From positions 1 through 64,000 of the IMG/VR virus record IMGVR_UViG_3300044972_002460: 64,000 bases of DNA; one strand, 5' to 3'. The notes beneath the pieces were generated by a model, which was given only the letters and a program-made list of their open reading frames with translations, was not told the DNA's origin and did no database searches. Source of the stretch: a virus. A program made the position numbers and the translations under genes. Positions 1 through 59,940 of this stretch are shown piece by piece. Position 1 is the first letter of the stretch, and each line of letters opens with the position of its first letter.

Positions 1-534
1 GCACCCACTTCAGTTGGTGGTAGTTTCTCGTGCAGCGACCAGCAGCTCACCACACTTGAAGGTGCACCCACTTCAGTTGGTGGTGATTTCTTGTGCCACA
101 ACAACCAGCTCACCACACTTGAAGGTGGGCCCATTTCAGTTGGTGGTAGTTTATTGTGCTATAACAACCAGCTCACCACACTTGAAGGTGGGCCCACTTC
201 AGTTGGTCGTCATTACGATTGCTCCAACAACCAGCTCACTACACTTGAAGGTGCGCCCACTTCAATTGGTGGTAGTTTCGACTGCCACAACAACCAGCTC
301 ACCACACTTGAAGGAATGCCAACCATACCTGGAATCTTACATCTCTCCTATAGCTCCACTTTGCCACTGCTTCGTTGTTTGCTCGCAAAAGAGATTCAAC
401 TGTATCCTGAGAATGGGAAGCACAAAACAGCTGAAAAAATTCTCAATCGATACGCAGGAAACGGCATACGATACTTGTTTGAATGCCAAAAAGACTTAGA
501 AGATGCTGGATTTGAAGGAAATGCCAGATGGTAG
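1..534 (+). CDS. LRR-array protein A1, 5' end outside window
   Basis: The frame is open from base 1, so the start lies upstream. At least five 21-residue leucine-rich units (NQLTTLEG-x-PTSVGG type, 63 bases each) are visible, followed by the family's C-terminal block: LPLLRCLLAKEI, then a helical segment ending DLEDAGFEGNARW. Units 3 to 5 are nearly identical to units in A3, including the odd VGRHYDC unit, which points to recent gene conversion or duplication. The last codons contain GAAGGA and ATGG, the ribosome-binding site and start of A2. Function unknown; LRRs usually bind proteins. Confidence 0.9.
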   Translation, partial: APTSVGGSFSCSDQQLTTLEGAPTSVGGDFLCHNNQLTTLEGGPISVGGSLLCYNNQLTTLEGGPTSVGRHYDCSNNQLTTLEGAPTSIGGSFDCHNNQLTTLEGMPTIPGILHLSYSSTLPLLRCLLAKEIQLYPENGKHKTAEKILNRYAGNGIRYLFECQKDLEDAGFEGNARW

Positions 535-1451
535 ACAAAAAAGAAGTAATGGCTTTGTTGAAAGCTAATTTCAAAACAACTGGTTCAATAACCATTGACG
601 ATAAGGGATTGGTTAGTTGTACAGGTATGGTAACTCCTAAAAAGAAGTTGAAGAGATTGCCTGTTGCTTTTGATAAGGTTGGTGGTGATTTCAAGTGCGA
701 CAACAACCAGCTCACCACACTTGAAGGTGCACCCACTTCAGTTGGTGGTAGTTTCTTCTGCCACATCAACCAGCTCACCACACTCCAAGGTGCACCCACT
801 TCAGTTGGTGGTGGTTTCTTATGCAGCCTCAACCAGCTCACCACACTTGAAGGTGGGCCCACTTCAGTTGGTCGTCATTACGATTGCTCCAACAACCAGC
901 TCACCACACTTGAAGGTGGGCCCACTTCAGTTGGTGGTGATTTCTTGTGCAGCCTCAACCAGCTCACTACACTTGAAGGTGGGCCCACTTCAGTTGGTGG
1001 TAGTTTCTGGTGCGACAACAACCAGCTCACCACACTTGAAGGTGCACCCACTTCAGTTGGTGGTGGTTTCTTCTGCCACATCAACCAGCTCACCACACTT
1101 GAAGGTGCACCCACTTCAGTTGGTGGTAGTTTCTGGTGCGACAACAACCAGCTCACCACACTTGAAGGTGCACCCACTTCAGTTGGTGGTAATTTCTCGT
1201 GCAGCAACCAGCAGCTCACCACACTTGAAGGCTTGCCAACTGTACCTGGAACCTTACATCTCTCCTACAGCCCCACCTTGCCACTGCTTCGTTGCTTGTT
1301 GGCAAAAGAGATTCAACTGTATCCTCTGCATGGAAAGCACAAAACAGCTGAAGTAATTCTCAATCGCTACGGAGGGCAAGGCAAACGAGCAATGTTTGAT
1401 TGCCAAAAAGATCTAGAGGACGCTGGCTTTGAGGAGAATGCAAGATGGTAG
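528..1451 (+). CDS. LRR-array protein A2
   Basis: 307 residues, the longest complete member. Family architecture: an N-terminal domain of about 50 residues (starts MVDKKEVMALL and ends at LPVAFDKVGG), then nine 21-residue units NQLTTLEG-[AG]-PTSVGG-x-F-x-C-x-x, then a C-terminal domain of about 65 residues (LPLLRCLLAKEI, GQGKRAMFDCQKDLEDAGF). Units differ from one another at only a few codons after GG and around the Cys. ATG 528 lies inside the last codons of A1 (7-base overlap) with GAAGGA 8 bases upstream. No signal peptide is visible, so it is probably cytoplasmic or virion-borne. Partner unknown. Confidence 0.92.
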   Translation: MVDKKEVMALLKANFKTTGSITIDDKGLVSCTGMVTPKKKLKRLPVAFDKVGGDFKCDNNQLTTLEGAPTSVGGSFFCHINQLTTLQGAPTSVGGGFLCSLNQLTTLEGGPTSVGRHYDCSNNQLTTLEGGPTSVGGDFLCSLNQLTTLEGGPTSVGGSFWCDNNQLTTLEGAPTSVGGGFFCHINQLTTLEGAPTSVGGSFWCDNNQLTTLEGAPTSVGGNFSCSNQQLTTLEGLPTVPGTLHLSYSPTLPLLRCLLAKEIQLYPLHGKHKTAEVILNRYGGQGKRAMFDCQKDLEDAGFEENARW

Positions 1452-2242
1452 ACAAAAAAGAAGTAATGGCTTTGTTGGAAAAATATTTCAAAACAACTGG
1501 TTCAATAACCATTGATGATAAGGGATTGGTTAGTTGTACAGGTATGGTAACTCCTAAAAAGAAGTTGAAGAGATTGCCTGTTGCTTTTGATAAGGTTGGT
1601 GGTAGTTTCAAGTGCGGCAACAACCAGCTCACCACACTTGAAGGTGGGCCCATTTCAGTTGGTGGTGGTTTCTTGTGCTACAACAACCAGCTCACTACAC
1701 TCCAAGGTGCACCCACTTCAGTTGGTGGTGGTTTCTGGTGCCACAACAACCAGCTCACCACACTTGAAGGTGGGCCCACTTCAGTTGGTGGTGATTTCTT
1801 GTGCCACAACAACCAGCTCACCACACTTGAAGGTGGGCCCACTTCAGTTGGTGGTAGTTTATTGTGCTATAACAACCAGCTCACCACACTTGAAGGTGGG
1901 CCCACTTCAGTTGGTCGTCATTACGATTGCTCCAACAACCAGCTCACCACACTTGAAGGTGCGCCCACTTCAATTGGTGGTAGTTTCAACTGCCACAACA
2001 ACCAGCTCACCACACTTGAAGGCTTGCCAACCATACCTGGAATCTTACATCTCTCCTATAGCTCCACTTTGCCACTGCTTCGTTGTTTGCTCGCAAAAGA
2101 GATTCAACTGTATCCCAAAGATGGGAAGCACAAAACAGCTGAAGTAATTCTCAATCGCTACGGAGGGCAAGGCAAACGAGCCCTATTTGACTGCCAAAAG
2201 GACTTGGAAGATGCAGGATTTGCGGAGAATGCAAGATGGTAG
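1445..2242 (+). CDS. LRR-array protein A3
   Basis: 265 residues with seven near-identical 21-residue units. The first 50 residues match A2 almost base for base (VMALLEKYFKTTGSITIDD), and the last units match A1, so the gene looks like a mosaic of its neighbours. ATG 1445 overlaps the A2 stop by 7 bases. The SD is GAGGAG, written by Glu-Glu codons of A2. Confidence 0.92.
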   Translation: MVDKKEVMALLEKYFKTTGSITIDDKGLVSCTGMVTPKKKLKRLPVAFDKVGGSFKCGNNQLTTLEGGPISVGGGFLCYNNQLTTLQGAPTSVGGGFWCHNNQLTTLEGGPTSVGGDFLCHNNQLTTLEGGPTSVGGSLLCYNNQLTTLEGGPTSVGRHYDCSNNQLTTLEGAPTSIGGSFNCHNNQLTTLEGLPTIPGILHLSYSSTLPLLRCLLAKEIQLYPKDGKHKTAEVILNRYGGQGKRALFDCQKDLEDAGFAENARW

Positions 2243-2829
2243 ATAGAGAACAGATTCACAAAATATTCAACAAGTGGTTTTTGGCAAATGACAGTGAAAG
2301 TGTTGAAGTCACTATCAATGGTGTAGTCAACGTCGCCAGCAGTGTCGAAGCACAAATACGAGGAGAGGATTTTCCAAATGGTGAGCTGCCTGTGCAATTT
2401 GGGCGCATTGATGGCGACTTTCGCCTATCCTACTGTGAGTTGACATCTCTTAAGGGAATGCCAACTGAGATTACTGGGTTGTTGAACTTAACTGGTAATA
2501 AGTTAACAAGTCTTGTTGGTTGTACTCAAAAAATTGGGGGTTATTTGCGTCTGCGTAGTAACCCACAGTTGAAAACATTGGATGGATTCCCCACTGAATT
2601 GGGAGAATTTGTAAGCCTCGACTGGACACCCAATCTACCATTGTTGCGCACGCTATTGGCTAAACAAGGCGTAGCATTGTGGGCAAATCAAATGACTACG
2701 GAAGATCAAGACAATGCAGCACAAGTAGAAAAAATTTTAAACAAATACCACGGTCAAGGCAAGCGTGCCTTGTTTGAATGCCAAAAAGAATTGGAAGATG
2801 AGGGATTTGAAGGAAATGCAAGATGGTAA
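2236..2829 (+). CDS. LRR-array protein A4
   Basis: 197 residues. It shares the family start (MVDREQ) and the C-terminal block (LPLLRTLLAKQ, GQGKRALFECQKELEDEGFEGNARW-like end), but only about three diverged units (LTSLKGMPTEITG, LTSLVGCTQKIGG, LKTLDGFPTELG). From here on the repeats are no longer near-identical in DNA, so A1-A3 are the recently expanded part of the array. The upstream SD is GCGGAG, where A3 encodes Ala-Glu instead of Glu-Gly. Confidence 0.9.
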   Translation: MVDREQIHKIFNKWFLANDSESVEVTINGVVNVASSVEAQIRGEDFPNGELPVQFGRIDGDFRLSYCELTSLKGMPTEITGLLNLTGNKLTSLVGCTQKIGGYLRLRSNPQLKTLDGFPTELGEFVSLDWTPNLPLLRTLLAKQGVALWANQMTTEDQDNAAQVEKILNKYHGQGKRALFECQKELEDEGFEGNARW

Positions 2830-3476
2830 CTGACCCAAGAAAAATCCAAGAACTTACTGAAACATTTACAGAAGATTTTTCCTGGAATGGCGAACTGGAA
2901 TTTCATAACGAACACACCGTGAGTGTGAAAGCAAAAGGTGGGATAGCTGGAAGCCTTCACATCAGGCGAGATGTTCTTGAATTTGCGTGGGAGATCAAAT
3001 CTGTAGGTGGTGATGTTCGCTTAGACAGATCACTTGTGAGAACCTTTGAGGGTGCGCCCAGTTATATTGGTAGAGATCTAGAGATCTTTGATTGTCCTAA
3101 TATAAAGGATCTGGGCGGCACATTTGATTATGTGAGTAGAGATTTAGTGATAAAAGGCACCTCCCTCACAAATCTTAAAGGAGGACCAAACACTGTGGAC
3201 CGCGACGTTCAAATATATGACATGCCCTATTTGGAAAGTCTTGAAGGATTTCCCAGCAGTGTGGGAAGAACAGTGAAACTTACTTACATGCCAAATATGG
3301 GACTGCTGAGACTCTTGGTAGCACAAAAAGTATGGTTGTACAGTGACGATTTACCTGATGAATCTCAGGCAGTTGAAAACATCCTGAATAATTATGCTGG
3401 CAAAGGAAAACAAGCCCTGTTTGACTGCCAAAAAGATCTAGAGGATGCGGGTTTTGAAGGAAATGCCCGATGGTAA
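2823..3476 (+). CDS. LRR-array protein A5
   Basis: 217 residues: an N-terminal domain, four diverged units (FEGAPSYIGRDLEI, LGGTFDYVSRDLVI, LKGGPNTVDRDVQI, LEGFPSSVGRTVKL), then the LLRLLVAQKVWLY and GKGKQALFDCQKDLEDAGF C-terminal block. Its repeats favour RD-[LV]-x-I where A1-A3 have GG-x-F-x-C, so each paralogue carries its own strand signature. It starts at ATG inside ...AGATGGTAAC; A4 ends with TAA rather than TAG. Confidence 0.9.
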   Translation: MVTDPRKIQELTETFTEDFSWNGELEFHNEHTVSVKAKGGIAGSLHIRRDVLEFAWEIKSVGGDVRLDRSLVRTFEGAPSYIGRDLEIFDCPNIKDLGGTFDYVSRDLVIKGTSLTNLKGGPNTVDRDVQIYDMPYLESLEGFPSSVGRTVKLTYMPNMGLLRLLVAQKVWLYSDDLPDESQAVENILNNYAGKGKQALFDCQKDLEDAGFEGNARW

Positions 3477-4042
3477 ACAAACGAGAAATAAAAGAAAAGC
3501 TTGAGAGATTCCTATCAATGGATGGCGAATACCGTATTTGCGATGATGGAACAATTGTAGCTTACGGTAATGTAAATGCTGGCCGGGCCATATCTCACTT
3601 GCCTTTCAAATTTAGCTCAATAGCTGGACATTTGTATTTGGCTAACAGCAATCTCAAGAGCTTCCAGAATTCGCCCGCTGAGGTAGGCGGCAATCTTTGG
3701 GCCCACAACAATCAAATCCAAAGCTTGGCGGGCATGCCCAGTAAGGTTGGGGGTAACTTGAGTTTGGAAAGAAATCCATTGAAGAGTCTCGAGGGCTTGA
3801 GCACAGAGATTGGGGGTTGGATAGAACTCACCTATGATCCTAAACTGCCATTACTTAGAACACTGGTGGCCAAATTGGGACTAGTTTTGCGACTGCCAAG
3901 TGAGCCAACTCTTGAGATAGAAGCAGCACGTGATGCGGTGAACAACATAATGTTTCGTTACCAGGGACAGGGAAAACGAGCAATGTTCGATTGCCAAAAA
4001 GAACTGGAAGATGCAGGGTTTGGGGGAAATGCCAGATGGTAG
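3470..4042 (+). CDS. LRR-array protein A6
   Basis: 190 residues with about three diverged units (LKSFQNSPAEVGGNLWA, IQSLAGMPSKVGGNLSL, LKSLEGLSTEIGGWIEL), then LPLLRTLVAKLG and the GQGKRAMFDCQKELEDAGF block. ATG 3470 overlaps the A5 stop by 7 bases, with GAAGGA as SD. Its own final codons read GGGGGA (Gly-Gly), again keeping a purine SD for A7. Confidence 0.9.
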   Translation: MVNKREIKEKLERFLSMDGEYRICDDGTIVAYGNVNAGRAISHLPFKFSSIAGHLYLANSNLKSFQNSPAEVGGNLWAHNNQIQSLAGMPSKVGGNLSLERNPLKSLEGLSTEIGGWIELTYDPKLPLLRTLVAKLGLVLRLPSEPTLEIEAARDAVNNIMFRYQGQGKRAMFDCQKELEDAGFGGNARW

Positions 4043-4731
4043 ACAAATACAACACAGCCAAAATACTCACAAGGCATTTCAAGACCACTTATTCTGAACG
4101 ACCACTTGATAACGACGATTACAATGTTGATGACCATGGTTGGGTGGAATTATATTCCTCTGCTGGGGCTGTTCGGTCATTTGCCACTGGAAAACTACCT
4201 ATCAAATTCAAGATAGCTCATTATGATTTCATTGTTTCGGGAATGGGATTGAAGAGCTTAGAAGGCTGTCCACTTGTTGTCCAAGGAGACTTCCATTGTG
4301 AAGATAATCAGTTAACTTCCCTACAATACGCACCCAAAGAAACTCAAAATTTTGATTGCAGCAACAATCAGTTAGTGAGCTTGAAATATTGTCCACCTGT
4401 CTTATATGAGTTAGTGTGTAATAAAAATCTGTTGACCAGTCTAGAGTCTTGTCCACCCACAAATTATATTTGGGCCACTGAAAACCCTTTTGAACATTTT
4501 CGTAATACTCCTGCACATGTAAACACTGTGGTAATCACTTGGAAACCACATTTACCCTTGTTGGGCCTTTTGACTGTGAACGAAATACAGCTTATCAATC
4601 CCGATAATGGAGAGAAGATGAAGGACGTGGAACTCATACTCAACAAATATACCGGCCAAGGAAAACGAGCCCTGTTTGATTGCCAAAAGGATCTAGAGGA
4701 CGCTGGCTTTGAGGAGAATGCAAGATGGTAG
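4036..4731 (+). CDS. LRR-array protein A7
   Basis: 231 residues. The start is placed at ATG 4036 because it preserves the 7-base overlap and family N-terminus (MVDKYNTAKIL); the frame runs further upstream but only through A6. About five units; several have lost the Val-Gly-Gly turn and carry Cys instead (YCPPVLYELVC, SCPPTNYIWA). The C-terminal block is intact (LPLLGLLTVNEI, GQGKRALFDCQKDLEDAGF). SD for A8 is GAGGAG. Confidence 0.9.
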   Translation: MVDKYNTAKILTRHFKTTYSERPLDNDDYNVDDHGWVELYSSAGAVRSFATGKLPIKFKIAHYDFIVSGMGLKSLEGCPLVVQGDFHCEDNQLTSLQYAPKETQNFDCSNNQLVSLKYCPPVLYELVCNKNLLTSLESCPPTNYIWATENPFEHFRNTPAHVNTVVITWKPHLPLLGLLTVNEIQLINPDNGEKMKDVELILNKYTGQGKRALFDCQKDLEDAGFEENARW

Positions 4732-5300
4732 ATAAAGCAAGCAGTCTGCAAGAAGCTAAACAAATACTCCGTGATTATGCCCCAACACTTGCCCTTAACT
4801 CCATCTCACTAGATAGCGAAAATAGAGTTGACATCTCTGGTGACATTGACTTGCATCGACTGTTTGGGAGGAGAAGCCACAAAACACTTCCTCTGGTGTT
4901 TGGTAAAATCACTGGTAACTTTCAAGCGGTTGATCTTGGACTCACAACGCTCGAAGGTTCCCCATATTGGGTTGGAAAGGCATTCTCTGTCAAAAACAAC
5001 AACTTAACCACCTTAACTGGCGGACCTGACTATGTGGGAACCTATTATCTTGTGACTAAGAATCCATTGGAAAATTTAGATGGGCTAGCATCACATATTG
5101 GGGGGCTCGGTGTAGAGTTTGATTATACACCCACTCTTCCCTTGTTGCGCACACTGGTAGCCCAGAAAATTTGGCCCAATCCAGATCAAGTGGAATTGGA
5201 AAAAATCTTAGTCAAATATGCAGGGCAAGGCAAACGAGCAATGTTTGACTGCCAAAAAGACTTGGAAGATGCTGGATTTGAAGGGAATGCCAGATGGTAG
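4725..5300 (+). CDS. LRR-array protein A8
   Basis: 191 residues with three units. The last unit, NPLENLDGLASHIG, is nearly the same as one in B1 of the second array (NPLENLDGLASEIG) although the DNA has diverged, linking the two arrays. It has the family C-terminal block and the 7-base overlap with A7, and ends in GAAGGG SD plus overlapping ATG for A9. Confidence 0.9.
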   Translation: MVDKASSLQEAKQILRDYAPTLALNSISLDSENRVDISGDIDLHRLFGRRSHKTLPLVFGKITGNFQAVDLGLTTLEGSPYWVGKAFSVKNNNLTTLTGGPDYVGTYYLVTKNPLENLDGLASHIGGLGVEFDYTPTLPLLRTLVAQKIWPNPDQVELEKILVKYAGQGKRAMFDCQKDLEDAGFEGNARW

Positions 5301-5989
5301 ATAAAGATAAGTTACTACTGCGATTTAAGATGTATTTCATAGGTATCAACATCTCAGTTGACAACATTGACAAGGAGGGGTTGTTCAACAGTGCAGATGG
5401 TGTGAAAATGATCAACCCTGCACCAGCCTTTCAAGAACTACCTGTGCGTTTTGGAACAGTCTACAATTTCAAAGCCGTTGACAAAAACCTGTGGAGTTTG
5501 AAGGGCAGCCCACAAATTGTGCATCGTGAATTTGACGTAGACAGCAATCCACTTGGAGAAAAAGGATTGCGTGGTGGACCACAAACAGTAGGCGGCAACT
5601 ATTGGTGTAACCATTGTAATCTCACTAGTCTTGCGGGGGCACCAAACTCTGTGGGCGGGGGATTTTATTGTAGTGACAACGGGTTACACAACCTCATAGG
5701 GGCGCCCGAAACTGTAGGGGATGACTTTTTCTGTGCCGACAACCCATTGAAGAGTTTGGAAGGCTTACCAAAAGTTATACCAGGAGAGTTGAGGCTCTCC
5801 TATGATCCAGAGCTGCCACTGTTGCGAACACTGATTGCAAATATGGTAACGTTTGCCAACTATTACCAAGATCCTGCCTCTACTGTGCAAGACATATTGG
5901 CCAAATATGCCGGCCAAGGCAAAAGTGCTATGTTTGATTGCCAAAAGGATCTAGAGGACGCTGGTTTTGACAAGAACGCCCGTTGGTAA
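5294..5989 (+). CDS. LRR-array protein A9, last member of array A
   Basis: 231 residues with about five units (NLTSLAGAPNSVGGGFYC, LIGAPETVGDDFFC) and the C-terminal block. It ends DKNARW-TAA. The codons that form GAAGGA/GAGGAG in all upstream members are GACAAG here, and the position of the next ATG reads TTG. The coupling signal is therefore gone exactly where no LRR gene follows. Confidence 0.9.
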   Translation: MVDKDKLLLRFKMYFIGINISVDNIDKEGLFNSADGVKMINPAPAFQELPVRFGTVYNFKAVDKNLWSLKGSPQIVHREFDVDSNPLGEKGLRGGPQTVGGNYWCNHCNLTSLAGAPNSVGGGFYCSDNGLHNLIGAPETVGDDFFCADNPLKSLEGLPKVIPGELRLSYDPELPLLRTLIANMVTFANYYQDPASTVQDILAKYAGQGKSAMFDCQKDLEDAGFDKNARW

Positions 5990-5992
5990 ATA
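5986..5992 (+). promoter_or_regulatory. late-type box GTAAATA
   Basis: GTAAATA sits 5 bases before ATG 5998, the same arrangement as at 37325. It resembles the T4 late -10 element and would give a leaderless transcript. Confidence 0.45.
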
Positions 5993-5997
5993 GATAT

Positions 5998-6315
5998 ATG
6001 AAAGAAGATATCCAACTTTGGCGCAAGGTTGTTCTTGAAGCCTATGAAGGCGAGACCCAAGTGGATCGGATGATTCAGCAAGGACAAGTCAACTATGGTA
6101 GAGAGGCAGCTCAGTTCAAACTACCACCAGATTACCCTGCAATCAAAACTGTAGCTGATCTCTTAAACAGCTTGGACGACTACATCAAAGCCAGCTCAGA
6201 CAGTGTGAAAGATCCCATCGCCTTGACCTTGATGAGCCGTTTGAAAAATCTCAACTTGCAGAGAATGGGCAATGATTTAGACCGTGTGGCCCGGTTGCCC
6301 AATCCAGAAAAATAA
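5998..6315 (+). CDS. small hypothetical protein after array A
   Basis: 105 residues, mostly helical and charged (starts MKEDIQLWRKVVLEAYEGE), not an LRR. I chose ATG 5998; a TTG at 5983 lies where array members start but has no SD. It is followed immediately by the convergent ClpP-like gene. Not recognised. Confidence 0.65.
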   Translation: MKEDIQLWRKVVLEAYEGETQVDRMIQQGQVNYGREAAQFKLPPDYPAIKTVADLLNSLDDYIKASSDSVKDPIALTLMSRLKNLNLQRMGNDLDRVARLPNPEK

Positions 6316-6876
6316 TCAAAAAGTCTCTTTGATCTCGTCAGCAATACCGTAATTGACTGCCTCTTCAGGAGTGAGCCAAACGTCGCTGGCCGGCAGCAGT
6401 AATTTGCGAATTGTTTTCTCATCCAGACCAGTACAATGCCGATACAATTCGATCATTCGTTTGCCAGTGAGTTCAAACTCCTTGACTGTTGACAAGAGTT
6501 CGTGATGTTTCCCACCTTGCCCCCAAGAGTATTGATGACTCATGATGCTGGTGCTAGGGGTAATGACTCGATGCCCTTTGGCTCCACTCATAAATAGGAG
6601 AAGGCCGCAACTGGCAATTTGGCCGAGGCCAACAGTGTGAATTGGAATAGTGCTGCCTTTGATTACATCAATCAGTGCAAAGGCAGACGGCATCTCTCCA
6701 CCTGGGCTGCAAATAATGATTGTGAGATGCGGGGGACGCTCTTTGTTGGGCAAGAGATTTTTTCGTAGAATGAACTCAATAACGGGTCGAACAGTTTTGT
6801 CCTCAAATGACTCCATGAAAAGATACACATTGTGATCTTCAAGACTGGGCAACACTTTTCCAGCTAGTGGCGGCAT
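6316..6876 (-). CDS. clpP: ClpP-like serine protease
   Basis: 186 residues, the usual ClpP length. The catalytic triad is visible: Ser89 in GQIASCG, His114 in IMSHQ, Asp165 in SDVWLTPEEAVNYG. The oxyanion loop SPGGEMPSAFALID is typical of the family. ATG 6876 is chosen over an in-frame TTG at 6882 because AAAGGAG is 6 bases upstream. It should form the degradation chamber fed by an AAA+ unfoldase, and a ClpX homologue (51771-53021) lies in the same window. It has its own sigma-70 promoter. Confidence 0.9.
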   Translation of the reverse strand: MPPLAGKVLPSLEDHNVYLFMESFEDKTVRPVIEFILRKNLLPNKERPPHLTIIICSPGGEMPSAFALIDVIKGSTIPIHTVGLGQIASCGLLLFMSGAKGHRVITPSTSIMSHQYSWGQGGKHHELLSTVKEFELTGKRMIELYRHCTGLDEKTIRKLLLPASDVWLTPEEAVNYGIADEIKETF

Positions 6877-11693: not shown

Positions 11694-13777
11694 GTGTTAT
11701 TTTGTGGAGAGTTTTTGTCAATTGACTCCACATACTCCACAAAGGGGGTCAACGGCTCGTTGCGTAGTCCGAACGCAAAGCGCATGAGAGGATACCGGGC
11801 CTTGATCTCGTCAAACAATAGGTCCACATGGGCAGTGTCGGGCCGGATGCCCTTGATGTCCACACCAATTGAACGAGCTGCCAGTGTGAGATCCTGTATA
11901 GTAATATCCATGTTCTTGGATTTGGCCTTGCTCAGCACATCTGTGTGCTGATTCCACTCGCGTACCATACGTCCAATCACGTTCTCATGCTTGGCAAACA
12001 CCTGCCAATTGGATTGGTTGTTGCCAGCTGCCTGAACAAAGCTGTTGATCAACCCAGTGGCAACCACACGGTCCTTCCACTTGCCGTTGTCAATAAACTT
12101 CTGGACCTCTTGGTGAGCCCAGCTGGTAAACTCAATCCACTTGGGCTCACCAACAATCTTCTTGACATTGGTTTTGTTGATGCCCCAGATCTCAGTTGCG
12201 CTCTTGATGATACCAAGCCCAACCATTCCACGCACTAGATCACCCATGGCCACGTCCTGCCCATCTGGGCTTACAGGGTCCAGTACGTCAATCTGCACAT
12301 ATAGCCCCCCCTGCGAAGTAGTAAGCTCCTTCTCATTGCCCCAGTTATCACTCTTGCGCACTCGACCCCAAATGCTTGCGCGGCCAACCCATACTGCACC
12401 CTTGAACTTCATTACCACACGTTCAGCACGTGTCAAGCTCTTGGCGCTTTGAATTGGAGGATTGCCCAGTTGGGCCAGCACTTGGGCAACAACATCATCT
12501 TCGCCGGTGATGATATGGGCTCGCGGGTGTCGACCTGCCTTTTGCTCAGCCTTTAGCCAAAGCCCAACTCGGCTGGTGGTGTCAACGCAGTCTTGCCGAA
12601 AAAACGTCACTTCATTGGAGGTTGTGATGTATCGGGCCTGTTCTCGACGCCCACTGTCTCGAACATGGTGCAACACAACCGCAAGATTTTCAGTAAGGGT
12701 CTTGGCATAAAAATCATTTGCTGAAATATCCTCTCCCTGCCACTTGGGATAGACACCAGCAGAGTTCAAAACTTGGATCAAACCCCGCGTGTGATAGTTT
12801 CGATGCCACAGCTGGTGGTAGAGGCACCGAGCTGCCCAAAGAGTTGGTGCTTCTTCAAACTGCTTGTTGACCACATCACGAATGTTCTGGAGCACTTGGT
12901 CCAGCTTGCTCTCGAGAACAGCAATGGTGGTGGGATCGTAGCTGAGTTCTTCACGGCTAGCAGCCACATCCAGCTCACCAATGTTGAATTCAATCACCAG
13001 TGGTAGATGGATCAGGCTAGTGAAGCGATTGTTGAGCTGGCTGCTTTTGATGGGATAGGCAACACTGCCCATCCGTGCCACAGCACCGCTGCGATAATAG
13101 CGATCTTCGTCTCGAAGATACCAACCATCTCCCTCTTGAGTTCGAGTGATGGATCGCTGCCTGTAGTTGTTGTTACCACACACCACTGGCTGATTGGTAA
13201 ACCACATGAACACTTGCTCTGCCGTCTGGCAAAAGTTGCCCATGTCGTCACGCTTCACAGGCAGCTTCACCATCACACCATTGGGCGCAGTGGTGTTTTG
13301 CACCCCCAGCTTGGCTACACTCGGCTCGCCTGCCTCATTGATGAACATGGCATAGCTGTGCTGCTCACCATTGAAGGTGCTTACAACATCAAAGCCATTT
13401 GTGTAGGCGAAGGGAGATTTGCTGCCCAGGCCCAGCGCACCCACATAGTCGTTGCTTTCGGTCTTACTGGAACTGAAATAGGTTGTGTATAGGTCCATCA
13501 CCTGCTCATGACTGAGACCCAGGCCGTAGTCGGTCACAGAGAACCAAGGCTCCATGCTGTTGGGCAGATGCACATCAAAAGGTGTGTCCTGCTTGCCAGC
13601 AGCCACATGGCTGTCCCAGGCATTGCAAGAGAGCTCGCGGATCACAGCCTTGATCTTGTCAGCATAGAGATTACTCGACAGGATGCTGAATGCACGAGCA
13701 TTGGCCTTGATGCGGAAAGTGGTCTCTTCGCCTACTCCGCCTCGCTCCAGAGTCTGTGTGTTGTTGGTGATACGCAC
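11690..13777 (-). CDS. rIIA: rIIA-like GHKL ATPase
   Basis: 695 residues. The N-terminal GHKL fold is clear: ELSCNAWDSHVAAG (Glu/Asn box), DYGLGLS (G1), ALGLGSKSPFAYTNGF (G2). Start is GTG with SD AAGGA. T4 rIIA is a membrane-associated protein needed for growth in lambda lysogens. The N-box and glycine motifs suggest ATP binding. Transcribed from its own sigma-70 promoter, with rIIB 59 bases downstream. Confidence 0.9.
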   Translation of the reverse strand: MRITNNTQTLERGGVGEETTFRIKANARAFSILSSNLYADKIKAVIRELSCNAWDSHVAAGKQDTPFDVHLPNSMEPWFSVTDYGLGLSHEQVMDLYTTYFSSSKTESNDYVGALGLGSKSPFAYTNGFDVVSTFNGEQHSYAMFINEAGEPSVAKLGVQNTTAPNGVMVKLPVKRDDMGNFCQTAEQVFMWFTNQPVVCGNNNYRQRSITRTQEGDGWYLRDEDRYYRSGAVARMGSVAYPIKSSQLNNRFTSLIHLPLVIEFNIGELDVAASREELSYDPTTIAVLESKLDQVLQNIRDVVNKQFEEAPTLWAARCLYHQLWHRNYHTRGLIQVLNSAGVYPKWQGEDISANDFYAKTLTENLAVVLHHVRDSGRREQARYITTSNEVTFFRQDCVDTTSRVGLWLKAEQKAGRHPRAHIITGEDDVVAQVLAQLGNPPIQSAKSLTRAERVVMKFKGAVWVGRASIWGRVRKSDNWGNEKELTTSQGGLYVQIDVLDPVSPDGQDVAMGDLVRGMVGLGIIKSATEIWGINKTNVKKIVGEPKWIEFTSWAHQEVQKFIDNGKWKDRVVATGLINSFVQAAGNNQSNWQVFAKHENVIGRMVREWNQHTDVLSKAKSKNMDITIQDLTLAARSIGVDIKGIRPDTAHVDLLFDEIKARYPLMRFAFGLRNEPLTPFVEYVESIDKNSPQNNT

Positions 13778-51769: not shown

Positions 51770-51797
51770 ATTATAGCTGGGAGTGTTCATCAGTCAA
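51770..51797 (-). promoter_or_regulatory. sigma-70 promoter for infC
   Basis: TTGACT, N16, TATAAT. The ClpX stop TAA is part of the -10. Confidence 0.78.
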
Positions 51798-53021
51798 CAC
51801 TTGTTTCAAGGGAGTGAGGTTTTGAACATTATCCAGCGTGACTGTTAAGTCAGTGACTCCTTGATCGCGCAAGGAGGTGATTTGAAATTGGCTTTCCATC
51901 AACACCCGTTCAATTACAGCACGCAACCCTCGGGCGCCAGTTTTTTTGGTCAGCACCTGCTTGGCAACTTCATCCACTGCATCATCTTCAAATTCCAAAC
52001 TGATGCCATCTAGTTGGAACAGTTTTTGAAATTGTTTAACAATGCTGTTTTTTGGTTCCACTAAAATCTTTTTCAATGTATCATGATCAAGATCGTCAAA
52101 ACTCAAGATAACAGGTATGCGCCCACAAAGTTCAGGAATCATACCAAATGATATGAGATCTTCCGTTGTTACTTGACTCATCAAACGCTGGGTCTTATCT
52201 GGGCTGTGCTGTTCTTTAGTAGCACTTAAAAATCCAATACCACTGGTTTTTTCATCCAAACGTGCCTCAATGATTTTGTCAAGTCCTTCAAATGCACCAC
52301 CAACGATAAACAACACATTCTGTGTGTTCATAGTAACAAACTCACCGTTGGGGTTCTTGCGGCCGCCCATGGGACTGAATTTCACATCGCTGCCTTCAAT
52401 AATTTTCAAAAGAGCTTGTTGGACACCTTCGCCACTGACATCTCTAGTAGTGCTTACGTTCTCTCCTTTGCGCCCTATCTTGTCAATTTCATCAATGAAA
52501 ACAATGCCTTTTTCTGCCAATTCCATATTGTTCTCAGCAGCCTGGTATAGACGTGCAAGGCACTCCTCTGGGTCTAATCCCACATATCCTGTTTGGCTTA
52601 GGCTGGTGGCATCAACCACAGCAAATGGCACTTCCAGGATTTTGGCTAGGGTTTTGACCATATGAGTTTTGCCAACACCACTGTTGCCAATCATCATAAT
52701 GTTGCTTTTGTCAATACTGACACCATCCACAACTGGATTGTTGACACGCTTCAAGTGGTTGTAAATTGCCACAGCCAATGACTTTTTGGCATTTTTTTGC
52801 CCAATCACATGTTGATCCAAATACTCAACAATTTTGGGAGGCGTTAATTCTTTGGGAATGATGTGTACATTTTGTTCGTCTTGTGGTTTGATAATTTCCA
52901 TACACAAGGTAATACATTCACTGCAAATAAATGTATTACTACCTGCAATGAGTGTTTTTACTTGAGTTTGGTTTTTTCCACAAAAACTACAATAATGTAG
53001 AGCTTTGATGTTTGTGGTCAT
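51771..53021 (-). CDS. clpX: ClpX unfoldase
   Basis: 416 residues, full length. Zinc domain Cys11/14/33/36; Walker A GNSGVGKT (112-119); pore loop GYVG (145-148); Walker B IVFIDEID; IGF at 262-264, the tripeptide that docks on ClpP; sensor 2 ARGLR. All functional elements are kept, so it should drive ClpP proteolysis, with phage ClpP at 6316 or the host's. Start overlaps the upstream stop (ATGA). Confidence 0.95.
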   Translation of the reverse strand: MTTNIKALHYCSFCGKNQTQVKTLIAGSNTFICSECITLCMEIIKPQDEQNVHIIPKELTPPKIVEYLDQHVIGQKNAKKSLAVAIYNHLKRVNNPVVDGVSIDKSNIMMIGNSGVGKTHMVKTLAKILEVPFAVVDATSLSQTGYVGLDPEECLARLYQAAENNMELAEKGIVFIDEIDKIGRKGENVSTTRDVSGEGVQQALLKIIEGSDVKFSPMGGRKNPNGEFVTMNTQNVLFIVGGAFEGLDKIIEARLDEKTSGIGFLSATKEQHSPDKTQRLMSQVTTEDLISFGMIPELCGRIPVILSFDDLDHDTLKKILVEPKNSIVKQFQKLFQLDGISLEFEDDAVDEVAKQVLTKKTGARGLRAVIERVLMESQFQITSLRDQGVTDLTVTLDNVQNLTPLKQVLTDEHSQL

Positions 53022-56794: not shown

Positions 56795-56830
56795 TTGCAC
56801 CTCATTGGAAGATCTGTATGACGCAAGCCT

Positions 56831-56897
56831 ATGAAAACGTGTCTTATTTGATGGTCAAAAAACTGGAACTTGATAAGTTTGAAGGAATGCAAGATGG
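56831..56897 (+). pseudogene. decayed 3' end of a lost LRR-array gene
   Basis: Read against the 3' end of any array member, the bases match with a few indels: AAACGTG...TTTGAT-G-TCAAAAA...CTGGAA...TTTGAAGGAA-TGCAAGATGG. Frame and most codons are broken, yet the GAAGGA and ATG used by B1 are intact. Confidence 0.75.
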
Positions 56898-57469
56898 TAA
56901 ATGTGAAAGAAATTGAGAAAAGTTACAGAACGTATTTTGATGGTCCAGGCTTTGTAACCTCAAAAGGCAGTCTCAATATCAATCCCACCACTGGCAAAAT
57001 CACTGTTTTGAACAATGTTTTCTTGTGGCGTAGTCCGCCTGATGGAAAATTGCCGGTGGAATTTGAAGCAGCGAATTTCAGTATGCAAATACAAAACCGC
57101 AATTTAACCTCTCTAGAAGGTTGCCCACTGACGGTTAGACAAAATTTCTATTGCAGCGGCAACAAATTGACCACCTTGCTTGGTGGGCCAAAAAAAGTAG
57201 GAGGGACCTACGAGGCTAGCAATAATCCGTTGGAGAACCTTGACGGCCTTGCCTCTGAAATTGGAAACACCTTATACCTTCCCTACCATCCCCAGTTGCC
57301 TTTGTTGAGGGCCTTGGTGGCACCACAAATTGTGTTTGCCAATTTGAGCTTAGACCATAAACCCCCTGTTGCTATTATGAAAAAATACGAAGGGCAAGGC
57401 AAAAGGGCTTTGTTTGATTGCCAAAAAGAACTGGAAGATGCAGGGTATGAAGGCAATGCCAGATGGTAA
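56894..57469 (+). CDS. LRR-array protein B1
   Basis: 191 residues from ATG 56894, in the same TTTGAAGGAA...AGATGGTAA context as array junctions. Three units (LTSLEGCPLTVRQNFYC, LTTLLGGPKKVGGTYEA, NLDGLASEIG), then LPLLRALVAPQI and the GQGKRALFDCQKELEDAGY block. Confidence 0.9.
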   Translation: MVNVKEIEKSYRTYFDGPGFVTSKGSLNINPTTGKITVLNNVFLWRSPPDGKLPVEFEAANFSMQIQNRNLTSLEGCPLTVRQNFYCSGNKLTTLLGGPKKVGGTYEASNNPLENLDGLASEIGNTLYLPYHPQLPLLRALVAPQIVFANLSLDHKPPVAIMKKYEGQGKRALFDCQKELEDAGYEGNARW

Positions 57470-58221
57470 GTCTACGGGAAAGTGTCCTGAAAATATTTCA
57501 CTATAACTTTGATTTTCATGCCGGGACAAGTCATTCAGGAAAAATAGAGGTGGATGATGCAGGCCTAGTATCAGCATATGGCAACGTGAGTCTCCGGCTC
57601 TCTGCAACAATTTTGCCTTGCCGTTTCAAATTGGTTACAGGAGATTTCCTCTGCTCAAAAAACAACTTAACTAGTCTGTTGGGCAGTCCTTTCGAAGTTA
57701 TGGGTGATTTTGATGCTCGTGAGAATGAACTTGAGACACTTGAAGGTTTTCCAAAAACAGTGGGCGGGGTAACTTCGGTCAATCATAACAAGCTGAATAG
57801 CTTGAAGGGGGTACCAAACATCTCTCCCGGCAGTTTTTTTTGCTATAAGAATCAACTGTCTTCTCTTGAAGGTGGGCCTGATAGTGTCAATGGTGATTTT
57901 CGCTGTGACATCAATAATCTCACCAATCTCAAAGGTGCTCCCACCAAAGTCTCAGGCTATTTCACTTGCATAGATACCCCATTAACAAGCCTTGATGGTG
58001 CGCCACGAGAAATGGCGGGTTTTTGGGGCCCGTATCACAAAAATCTCCCGTTATTACGAACATTGGTTGCAGATGACATAGGATTGTATCCTACTTTGAA
58101 TCAAGATGCTAGAGCTGTGAAAAACATCCTTATGAAATACGCAGGGCAAGGCAAACGGGCTTTGTTTGATTGCCAAAAAGAACTGGAAGACTCTGGCTAT
58201 GAAGGAAACGCAAAATGGTAG
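57463..58221 (+). CDS. LRR-array protein B2
   Basis: 252 residues, the longest of array B, with six or seven units (LTSLLGSPFEVMGDFDA, LETLEGFPKTVGGV, LSSLEGGPDSVNGDFRC). Start ATG in 7-base overlap with B1, SD GAAGGC. N-terminal domain FHYNFDFHAGTSHSGKIEV. Confidence 0.9.
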   Translation: MVSLRESVLKIFHYNFDFHAGTSHSGKIEVDDAGLVSAYGNVSLRLSATILPCRFKLVTGDFLCSKNNLTSLLGSPFEVMGDFDARENELETLEGFPKTVGGVTSVNHNKLNSLKGVPNISPGSFFCYKNQLSSLEGGPDSVNGDFRCDINNLTNLKGAPTKVSGYFTCIDTPLTSLDGAPREMAGFWGPYHKNLPLLRTLVADDIGLYPTLNQDARAVKNILMKYAGQGKRALFDCQKELEDSGYEGNAKW

Positions 58222-58808
58222 ATGAAGAATCTATATTACGTATTTTTGAACACTATTTTGAAAATTCTGAAGACATCATCCAGAGAGGCAGATACAGATT
58301 TCTGAAAGAAAACGGTTCTCTTAACATCCTTGGCAATGTTATAAGAAGAAATGGCCTGCACATGCCTGACGGCATGTGGCCAGTGAATTTTGGGACTATC
58401 CATGGTAATGTGGGTATGAACAACTGTGGATTGACAAGCCTAGAAGGCAGCCCAGAAGTTGTGCACGGTAGCATGAGCATTGATGACAATCCACTGACCA
58501 ATCTTGTGGGATTGACCCAACAAATCTCTGGCCAACTCAATATTTCTGGAATTAACTTCAAGAGTCTTGAAGGTTTACCTCCAGACCAAAGTGTAGTTGT
58601 ATCTTGGTATCCAAATATGCCTATGTTGCGACTCCTAACATGCAAATGGATCGAGCTGGAATGGTTTCAAATGCGCGATCCAGCTGACTCCCACCCCAAA
58701 CAAGTGTTGAGTATTTTGAGAAAATATCGCAGATTTGGCAAAAAGGGCATGTTTGATTGTCAAAAAGAATTGGAAGATGCTGGATTTGAAGGGAATGCTC
58801 GATGGTAG
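58215..58808 (+). CDS. LRR-array protein B3
   Basis: 197 residues with three units (LTSLEGSPEVVHGSM, LTNLVGLTQQISGQL, FKSLEGLPPDQSVV). The C-terminal block is altered (RRFGKKGMFDCQKELEDAGF). The upstream junction reads AAAATGG, where B2 ends in Lys-Trp instead of Arg-Trp, keeping the ATG. Confidence 0.9.
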   Translation: MVDEESILRIFEHYFENSEDIIQRGRYRFLKENGSLNILGNVIRRNGLHMPDGMWPVNFGTIHGNVGMNNCGLTSLEGSPEVVHGSMSIDDNPLTNLVGLTQQISGQLNISGINFKSLEGLPPDQSVVVSWYPNMPMLRLLTCKWIELEWFQMRDPADSHPKQVLSILRKYRRFGKKGMFDCQKELEDAGFEGNARW

Positions 58809-59356
58809 ACAAAGAAGAGATCTTGAGAGTGTGGTGCAAATACTTTGACCCTGGTGATCAATATCGCCTATCCAAACAAATGCAAATACGTGATGATGGC
58901 ACAGTAGATGTGCAGTGGAATGTTTACATGCTTGATGAACTGGCTGAGATACCAGTCAAGTTCGGCACAGTGACGGGGGATTTTGTTGCTGAAGAAAAAG
59001 GCCTTAAAACCTTACACAACATGCCCCAACTTGTAACTGGCGACTGTGAGTTGGCTGGTAACAAGCTCACCACACTGATTGGTGCTCCCTTAGAGGTGGG
59101 TGGCAATTTTTTTGTAAACCGCAACCCGCTTGTTTCTCTTGACGGCTTTCCACAAAAGGTAGGCAAAAGGGTCAGTTTGAAATGGGGGCCATCCCTGCCA
59201 TTGCTGAGAACTCTAAACGCCCGTGAGGTAGTGCTGTATGGCCAACCTAGGGTCATGGCAATAATGAACAAATATGCAGGTCAAGGCAAACGAGCAATGT
59301 TTGATTGTCAAAAAGACTTGGAAGATGCAGGATTTGAAGGCAACGCAAAATGGTAG
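58802..59356 (+). CDS. LRR-array protein B4
   Basis: 184 residues with three units (LKTLHNMPQLVTGDCEL, LTTLIGAPLEVGGNFFV, LVSLDGFPQKVGKRVSL), then LPLLRTLNAREVVLY and GQGKRAMFDCQKDLEDAGF. SD GAAGGG in B3. Confidence 0.9.
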   Translation: MVDKEEILRVWCKYFDPGDQYRLSKQMQIRDDGTVDVQWNVYMLDELAEIPVKFGTVTGDFVAEEKGLKTLHNMPQLVTGDCELAGNKLTTLIGAPLEVGGNFFVNRNPLVSLDGFPQKVGKRVSLKWGPSLPLLRTLNAREVVLYGQPRVMAIMNKYAGQGKRAMFDCQKDLEDAGFEGNAKW

Positions 59357-59940
59357 ACAAAGAGAAGATTTTACAGGAGTTGAATTCCTATTTTGTTGCC
59401 TATTCAATAATTGAAGACAAAAAATATGATTTTGATAGTCAAGGCAGACTGAATGTGTATTCTGATATAAGGCCAAGCCAATATAGATTTCCCAATGGCA
59501 GCTTGCCATTTGCCTTTGGTAAGGTTGTGGGTACATTCAATGTTCGAGACAGCAACTTGAGTTCGTTATATGGCTGTCCTGGTGAAGTCACAGGAGACTG
59601 TTTGGTAGACCGAAACAAGCTATCTGATTTGAGGGGTGCGCCAGACACTGTTGGTGGAGTGTTCAACATAAGCTTAATGCCTAGACTACAAAGTCTAGAG
59701 GGGTTTCCTGCTAGTGTAGAAGCTGTAATTTTCACCTGGAGCTCTACTCTTCCGGTTCTTCGGTTGTTGAATGCCTGCCGAATAGGCATTGCATATGGTA
59801 ACACCAATGCAATTGAAAATCGAGCAGCTGAGAAGGTCAAAGACATCTTAAGAAGATATGCAGGACAAGGAAAACGTGCAATGTTTGATGCCCAAAAAGA
59901 ATTGGAAGATGCTGGATTTGAAAAAAATGCTCGCTGGTGA
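59350..59940 (+). CDS. LRR-array protein B5, last member of array B
   Basis: 196 residues with three units (LSSLYGCPGEVTGDCLV, LSDLRGAPDTVGGVFNI, LQSLEGFPASVEAVIF). It ends FEKNARW-TGA: the SD codons are GAAAAA and the ATG position reads CTG, so coupling is lost at the end of the array, as in A9. FDAQ replaces the family FDCQ. Confidence 0.9.
   Translation: MVDKEKILQELNSYFVAYSIIEDKKYDFDSQGRLNVYSDIRPSQYRFPNGSLPFAFGKVVGTFNVRDSNLSSLYGCPGEVTGDCLVDRNKLSDLRGAPDTVGGVFNISLMPRLQSLEGFPASVEAVIFTWSSTLPVLRLLNACRIGIAYGNTNAIENRAAEKVKDILRRYAGQGKRAMFDAQKELEDAGFEKNARW

Follow-up and report, generated by a model that had tools for sequence, protein, structure and literature searches.

An overlapping 3′ module as putative C-terminus, translation start signal and site of exchange in phage arrays of leucine-rich repeat genes

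How can a family of neighbouring, overlapping genes exchange or lose members while the remaining ones stay expressible? The question is raised by a window of 64,000 bases, that is bases 1-64000 of the 71,398-base phage record IMGVR_UViG_3300044972_002460, in which genes for leucine-rich repeat (LRR) proteins stand in arrays (Table 1). Array A (1-5989) consists of nine LRR genes joined at eight junctions, its first member being open at the 5′ end of the window; array B (56894-59940) has four junctions, and array C, with one junction, lies on the minus strand beyond the window, at the far end of the record. These arrays are probably operons of paralogous LRR proteins in which exchangeable bodies are combined with a fixed 3′ module of about 84 nucleotides (nt) that does three jobs. 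The module would code for the helical C-terminus of the LRR protein, whose last residues are typically GFEGNARW. It would also supply the Shine-Dalgarno sequence (SD) of the next gene and, within a 7-nt overlap, its start codon; as the stop codon ends 4 nt beyond this start, with the SD just behind, a terminating ribosome would be positioned to reinitiate (termination-reinitiation). Finally, the module would be the shared DNA in which homologous recombination exchanges, deletes or adds bodies, and a crossover within it would restore both a proper C-terminus and a functional start for the following gene, keeping the bodies in register.

Each junction of array A is a 7-nt overlap, reading ATGGTAG six times and ATGGTAA twice. 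Its form is A-TGG-TAR, in which the ATG is made of the last base of the codon before the tryptophan (Trp) and the first bases of the Trp codon, and the same letters are read as Trp-stop in one frame and as Met-Val in the other. The two residues before the overlap are EG, EE, AE or GG, and a GGA, GGAG or GGGA ends 7-8 nt before the start codon at each junction. The original prediction, made from the letters of this window, had described nine LRR genes overlapping by exactly 7 bases, the two forms of the overlap and a purine run that stays while the residues vary. All of this is seen, save that the nine genes give eight junctions, not nine. Over the whole record, the 7-nt ATGGTAR overlap is found at 13 of 13 array junctions (8 + 4 + 1). 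A scan of open reading frames (ORFs) of at least 80 amino acids, starting with ATG or GTG and overlapping by -3 to 12 nt, gave 26 rows outside the arrays, many of them perhaps not real genes: nine of 4 nt, six of 1 nt, three of 8 nt and eight others, with a single 7-nt overlap (GTGTGCTGA near 11949, opposite an rIIA-like gene). The 7-nt overlap of the arrays exceeds chance.

More arrays were sought in viral contigs by profile searches with A1, A2 and A3 and by DNA patterns, and the 3′ module was recovered in contigs G000-G008 and in two further copies of the G000 contig, by scans that depend on near-exact peptide or DNA stretches and that distant arrays may escape. Internal junctions from G000, G001, G003 and G005-G008 were pooled, 39 in all, including those of one distant phage (G008), an array D mini-gene, two genes truncated by record ends and one truncated where G005 stops; the terminal junction of L073 was left out of the counts. 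All 39 join co-directional genes with overlapping stop and start (the follower of L072 is known over 42 nt), and the start codon is ATG at 37, GTG at one and TTG at one. The SD lies within the upstream gene at a usable distance, with a pairing energy of -3.4 to -9.3 kcal/mol, the weakest being GAAGGC forms. G008 has nine members, with tails such as ILRCASELNEAGFEGNA[EQ]W, and an ATGGTAG overlap at 8 of 8 internal junctions.

Exchange of a body between two modules is observed in near-identical phages. At the last slot of array B the bodies of G005 and the record differ (41% amino acid identity), while their DNA shows no difference from the upstream tail across the junction into the first 12 nt of the gene, nor in the final 84 nt. 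This swap has both of its breakpoints in view, and its flanks are 98-99% identical between G005 and the record. A second swap, at the last slot of array C (38% amino acid identity), has its right-hand breakpoint in view, the last 78 nt matching with one mismatch; its left side is not comparable because the two arrays differ in gene number. Since the body swap stops at the tail, one tail would be protein end, next start signal and exchange boundary together. Between arrays B and C, G005 is 99.3% identical to the record over 4.2 kb and 98.7% over 7.3 kb, and G006 is 83-84% identical to G005 across parts of 4 kb.

The boundary can also be seen among unlike members (553 pairs), whose DNA identity is about 0.27 upstream, the level of chance, climbs to 0.31-0.63 between -120 and -85, and reaches 0.70-0.85 over the final 84 nt; at the gene start the first six bases, being fixed by the overlap, are highly alike, and beyond them identity is 0.59 or lower. 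Among 34 members the identity of tails is weakly related to that of bodies (rho 0.16, 561 pairs), and some tails are identical or nearly so between unlike bodies. Array D is common to G001-G004, and its copy in G001 alone was counted because no difference was found across the 7200 bases compared. At its head stands a mini-gene of 47 amino acids made of an N- and a C-terminus, with its junction intact, at a position where G007, which has two array members, carries a gene of 189 amino acids behind an upstream gene similar by eye. The joint of the mini-gene falls at GGCAAA, and because this string recurs in most phage-1 tails, the mini-gene likely arose by deletion at short homology. The original prediction had spoken of a self-propagating gene unit whose duplicated copies arrive already coupled. 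The replacement of one slot's body with tail and junction identical agrees with such a unit, but “self-propagating” is too strong, as nothing was found that drives its own copying. Variation driven by a reverse transcriptase, with the arrays as target of a diversity-generating retroelement, was considered and dropped, PF00078 being found in none of five records, all of which are fragments.

Whether the start signal is kept for its own sake or follows from the peptide can be asked codon by codon. If the C-terminus were conserved solely as part of the protein, for example as a cap or docking tail, the SD and ATG would be by-products of the codons for E-G-N-A-R-W. At the 39 junctions the codon before Trp is AGA (18), AAA (6), GAA (6), CGA (5), CAA (2), AGG (1) or CAT (1), the last two giving the GTG and TTG starts. 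The residue at this place varies among R, K, E, Q and H, whereas its third base rarely does: it is A in 37 of 39 cases, across R, K, E and Q, and arginine codons are NNA in 23 of 24 cases here against 43% in gene bodies. This is a constraint on a single nucleotide. Randomising the codons of the same peptides (1000 rounds) leaves far fewer ATG starts (mean 19.0, maximum 28, against the observed 37) and a weaker SD, with a pairing energy of -4.9 kcal/mol against -6.0 observed and none of the rounds as low. Glutamate codons in the SD stretch switch in the same manner, being GAG in 6 of 6 cases before E, D or A and GAA in 26 of 29 before Gly (Fisher 5e-5; four of the 39 junctions, with AE, GG, GL and ER, were left out, and two of the six GAG cases are the same codon pair within array A), so that a GG-containing purine run is kept; in gene bodies GAG stands before E, D or A in 6 of 34 cases. 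The Gly codon in the SD was rejected as a test, the control Gly at -8 being biased too. In addition, a tail remnant before array B has frame-breaking gaps, yet its SD and ATG remain. Conservation of the peptide first is unlikely to be the whole explanation in view of these points, and selection on the DNA of the start signal, clearest at the third base before Trp, is partly supported. The earlier claim that the DNA signal rather than the peptide is selected stands as to this third base, the GAA/GAG switching and the randomisation, and falls short in that the peptide is conserved as well.

A number of results weigh against the proposed module, several of them favouring the priority of the peptide. 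All 43 members, including last genes, have the Trp and the Ala at -3, and the tail lies within a confidently predicted helical end. Randomised codons still leave ATG, GTG or TTG at 35.1 of the 39 junctions on average (maximum 39), and since some start is thus mostly retained, only the excess of ATG counts. Seven arrays end within the available sequence, and the peptide end is conserved even there, with no paralogue following. Four of the seven last genes retain SD and ATG as well, namely those of array C and its G005 counterpart (a 12-codon ORF behind), array D (a 23-codon ORF) and G008 (a 91-amino-acid ORF, which we take to be cupin-like). The same C-terminus without a following paralogue, named in the original prediction as a contrary case, therefore does occur. 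SD and ATG are lost in the other three, in which Lys replaces Gly and CGT or CGC stands before Trp: array A, whose last gene has the tail GACAAGAACGCCCGTTGGTAA, a weak SD (-2.7 kcal/mol) and, replacing ATG, a TTG in frame with the next ORF, and array B with its G005 counterpart (CTG, orthologues). Loss of the signal is seen only where no paralogue follows, yet it is not the rule there.

Shared ancestry weighs in the same direction. The 39 junctions are not independent cases because paralogues share ancestry; they hold 34 distinct 33-nt tails, and two of them are orthologues of array B. Codon bias is present outside the signal too, where GGA encodes 26 of the 39 Gly at -8 and TTT all 34 Phe at -7, so that common descent accounts for part of the likeness of the tails. 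It could be argued that recent ancestry or gene conversion alone made the tails alike and that the start signal is unselected, as the near-identical tails on unlike bodies would also suggest. Such an account is improbable. In counts of Fitch changes on a tree of the bodies, which can only compare positions because tails move between bodies and have a tree of their own, the codon before Trp (codon -2) has 7 changes at position 1, as many at position 2 and 2 at position 3 for the 35 internal members, and 8, 8 and 4 for all 43 members (a tree that omits the array D mini-gene, the two record-end genes and the G005-end gene). It is the sole codon of 28 in the 43 members whose first and second positions each change more than the third, whereas third positions elsewhere in the same tails show up to 19 changes. 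The tails of G008, too, retain the signal, although most of what precedes GFEGNA is different in them. For the proposed recombination step, a RecA-family match was found in one of five records (G006) and in neither G000 nor G001, other recombinases not being part of the search. For the coupling step, an SD occluded by RNA structure as the device is unsupported, as folding at 37 of the 39 junctions shows no hiding structure (mean unpaired probability 0.52 against 0.51 with shuffled flanks, p 0.34). An overlap of -7 may also couple less well, because one study reports that coupling peaks at spacings of -4 to +3 and declines as the overlap lengthens (PMC12548453).

These last two points bear on a further explanation, in which free ribosomes start each gene independently at its own SD and the overlap merely saves space. 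The SD stands at usable spacing and is not occluded, and overlaps longer than 4 nt are reported as weaker couplers in PMC12548453. Against this, all internal junctions share the 7-nt overlap, while among the 26 other rows of the record 18 have one of 4, 1 or 8 nt, and most tested overlapping pairs of E. coli are described as coupled in PMC6728339. Independent initiation is rather doubtful, though it keeps an appreciable chance. Translational coupling of the array genes would agree with what is reported of known pairs: genes that overlap by a few nt, with the SD inside the upstream one, are frequent and in many cases coupled (PMC6728339, PMC10666635, PMC12548453), and the last 15 nt of the upstream gene were enough for termination-reinitiation in two tested E. 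coli pairs (PMC10666635). Matches to sigma-70-like promoters in 1-6400 number 6 against a shuffle mean of 7.4, which is no excess.

The variable bodies are putative LRR proteins. Pfam LRR_4 is above cut-off in one of six members (30.1 against 27 bits), with one more below it and none in the rest. The predicted structure of array A member 7 (mean predicted local distance difference test score, pLDDT, 95.5) has an N-terminal helix, strand repeats and C-terminal helices; it has no PDB match at E ≤0.001, the weak ones including some to LRR proteins. Three unnamed proteins of BFVD (A0A8D4GLZ7, A0A8D4GM51, A0A8D4GM21) were matched below 0.001 by Foldseek. The A0A8D4G and A0A8D4K entries of BFVD, among them several weak matches, have neighbouring accessions and are perhaps the paralogue family of one virus. 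Repeat-rich members consist of units of 21 amino acids (63 nt) and lie at 1-2242 of the window and 70263-71398 of the record. In 27 units (24 distinct) from five repeat-rich members of arrays A and C, 14 frame codons are shared and seven are variable. Pairwise comparison of the variable codons gives 934 non-synonymous and 21 synonymous differences in 1932 codon pairs, and that of the frame codons 321 and 209 in 3864. The seven variable codons are presumed to form the strand. This variation fits putative variable binding surfaces, through which the LRR proteins may bind variable partners.

As for the tail, no family of Pfam or PHROGs covers it convincingly, one weak match touching it (phrog_11758, E 0.014), and a tblastn search of the last 71 amino acids against a phage collection gave a best E of 2. 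Whole-protein tblastn queries matched the LRR parts of 5 and 6 phage records. The search of A1 against PDB sequences returned six weak matches, the best at E 0.04 (hemolysin E), which were taken as chance.

Cassette diversity of LRR proteins is known from the variable lymphocyte receptors of lampreys, and these resemble the present units in having a constant frame with variable residues. No sign of programmed assembly is seen in the phage arrays, in which the genes differ between and within genomes. Phage adhesins swap domains at conserved motifs, and here too variable parts are exchanged between conserved stretches; the conserved stretch of the LRR arrays differs in also carrying the next gene's start, in an array of complete genes. 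Neighbouring LRR ORFs with short overlaps occur in LR756501 (L061 2824-6450), a 735-kb uncultured phage, where mechanical starts give overlaps of 8, 13, 17 and 4 nt (four LRR ORFs and one other) and no common tail by eye. Termination-reinitiation pairs (PMC6728339, PMC10666635, PMC12548453) are alike in their co-directional genes, overlapping stop and start and SD in the upstream 3′ end, and differ in their enriched spacings of -4, -1 and -8 compared with -7 and Trp-stop here; the -7 overlap is not among the enriched spacings named in the passages of PMC12548453 examined. Unlike these pairs, the LRR arrays repeat one 3′ module through paralogues, a module that also appears to mark the exchange boundary. 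Among the matches listed from a literature search of titles and abstract starts, with subscription journals mostly outside its coverage, no such array was found, and the repetition of one module that closes the protein, starts the next gene and bounds the exchange appears new among those matches.

An expression signal placed inside the exchange sequence would offer a gene family a way to swap or delete members and still be expressed, and the natural swap between near-identical phages makes the idea testable. It is possible, and proposed here with some reserve, that the arrays form a cassette system of giant phages, in which LRR bodies are reshuffled between dual-coded modules and variable binding proteins turn over fast. 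If this were true, an operon of recognition proteins could be reshuffled without losing translation. The arrays would then point to a phage group that may vary its recognition proteins quickly, and the module of about 84 nt could be a means of adding genes to an operon.

The arrays are probably carried by a giant phage. PHROG matches among ten ORFs tested include rIIA- and rIIB-like proteins, a DNA polymerase and a virion structural protein. Contig G001 (309,756 bases) comes from the same sample, and record and G001 combined would probably make a genome near 380 kb. The same LRR repeat lies in inverted orientation at both ends of the record (window 1 and record 71398), which suggests that the record was broken at repeats during assembly. 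Array A extends onto G003, since the last 662 bases of that contig (L068) match the window start. A 5.3-kb 3′ stretch of the G000 contig is identical across all three copies. Profile searches of genome contigs with A1 and A3 gave zero relatives, and the pattern matches L115 and L116 were discarded, being out of frame in other sequence.

Table 1. Features of arrays A and B and their surroundings (window positions).
Feature	Position	Strand	Remarks
Array A member 0, 3′ part	1..534	+	rest on G003 (662-base overlap)
24-nt tail end, example	511..534	+	TTTGAAGGAAATGCCAGATGGTAG = FEGNARW*, SD (GGA), next start ATG at 528
Array A member 1, LRR protein	528..1451	+	307 amino acids
Array A member 2, LRR protein	1445..2242	+	265 amino acids; Pfam LRR_4 above cut-off
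Array A member 3	2236..2829	+	197 amino acids
Array A member 4	2823..3476	+	217 amino acids
Array A member 5	3470..4042	+	190 amino acids
Array A member 6	4036..4731	+	231 amino acids
Array A member 7	4725..5300	+	191 amino acids; predicted structure
Array A last member (ninth)	5294..5989	+	231 amino acids; tail GACAAGAACGCCCGTTGGTAA
Non-LRR ORF after array A	5983..6315	+	start TTG in overlap (5983) or ATG at 5998
32-amino-acid ORF	56818..56916	+	runs over frameshifted LRR gene-end remnant
Frameshifted tail remnant before array B	56835..56903	+	SD (AAGGA) and ATG kept, TTTGAAGGAATGCAAGATGGTAA at 56878
Array B member 0	56894..57469	+	191 amino acids
Array B member 1	57463..58221	+	252 amino acids
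Array B member 2	58215..58808	+	197 amino acids
Array B member 3	58802..59356	+	184 amino acids; G005 DNA about 98% identical
Array B last member	59350..59940	+	196 amino acids; tail GAAAAAAATGCTCGCTGGTGA without SD and ATG

Several array heads stand close behind their upstream genes, with TAATG in array D and G007, TGATG in G005 and a 2-nt gap in G006. The first LRR gene of G008 (L111, minus strand) is overlapped by an unrelated-looking upstream gene that ends in GGGKWW* (Trp-Trp-stop), the overlap being read, much as at the array junctions, as Trp-stop in one frame and as Met-Val or Val-Val in the other. Two other genes lie on the minus strand, one at 63614-65464 of the record, which from its translation we take to be DnaK-like, and one at 51771-53021 of the window, presumably ClpX-like; the PHROG matches of the latter ORF include ATP-dependent protease families.

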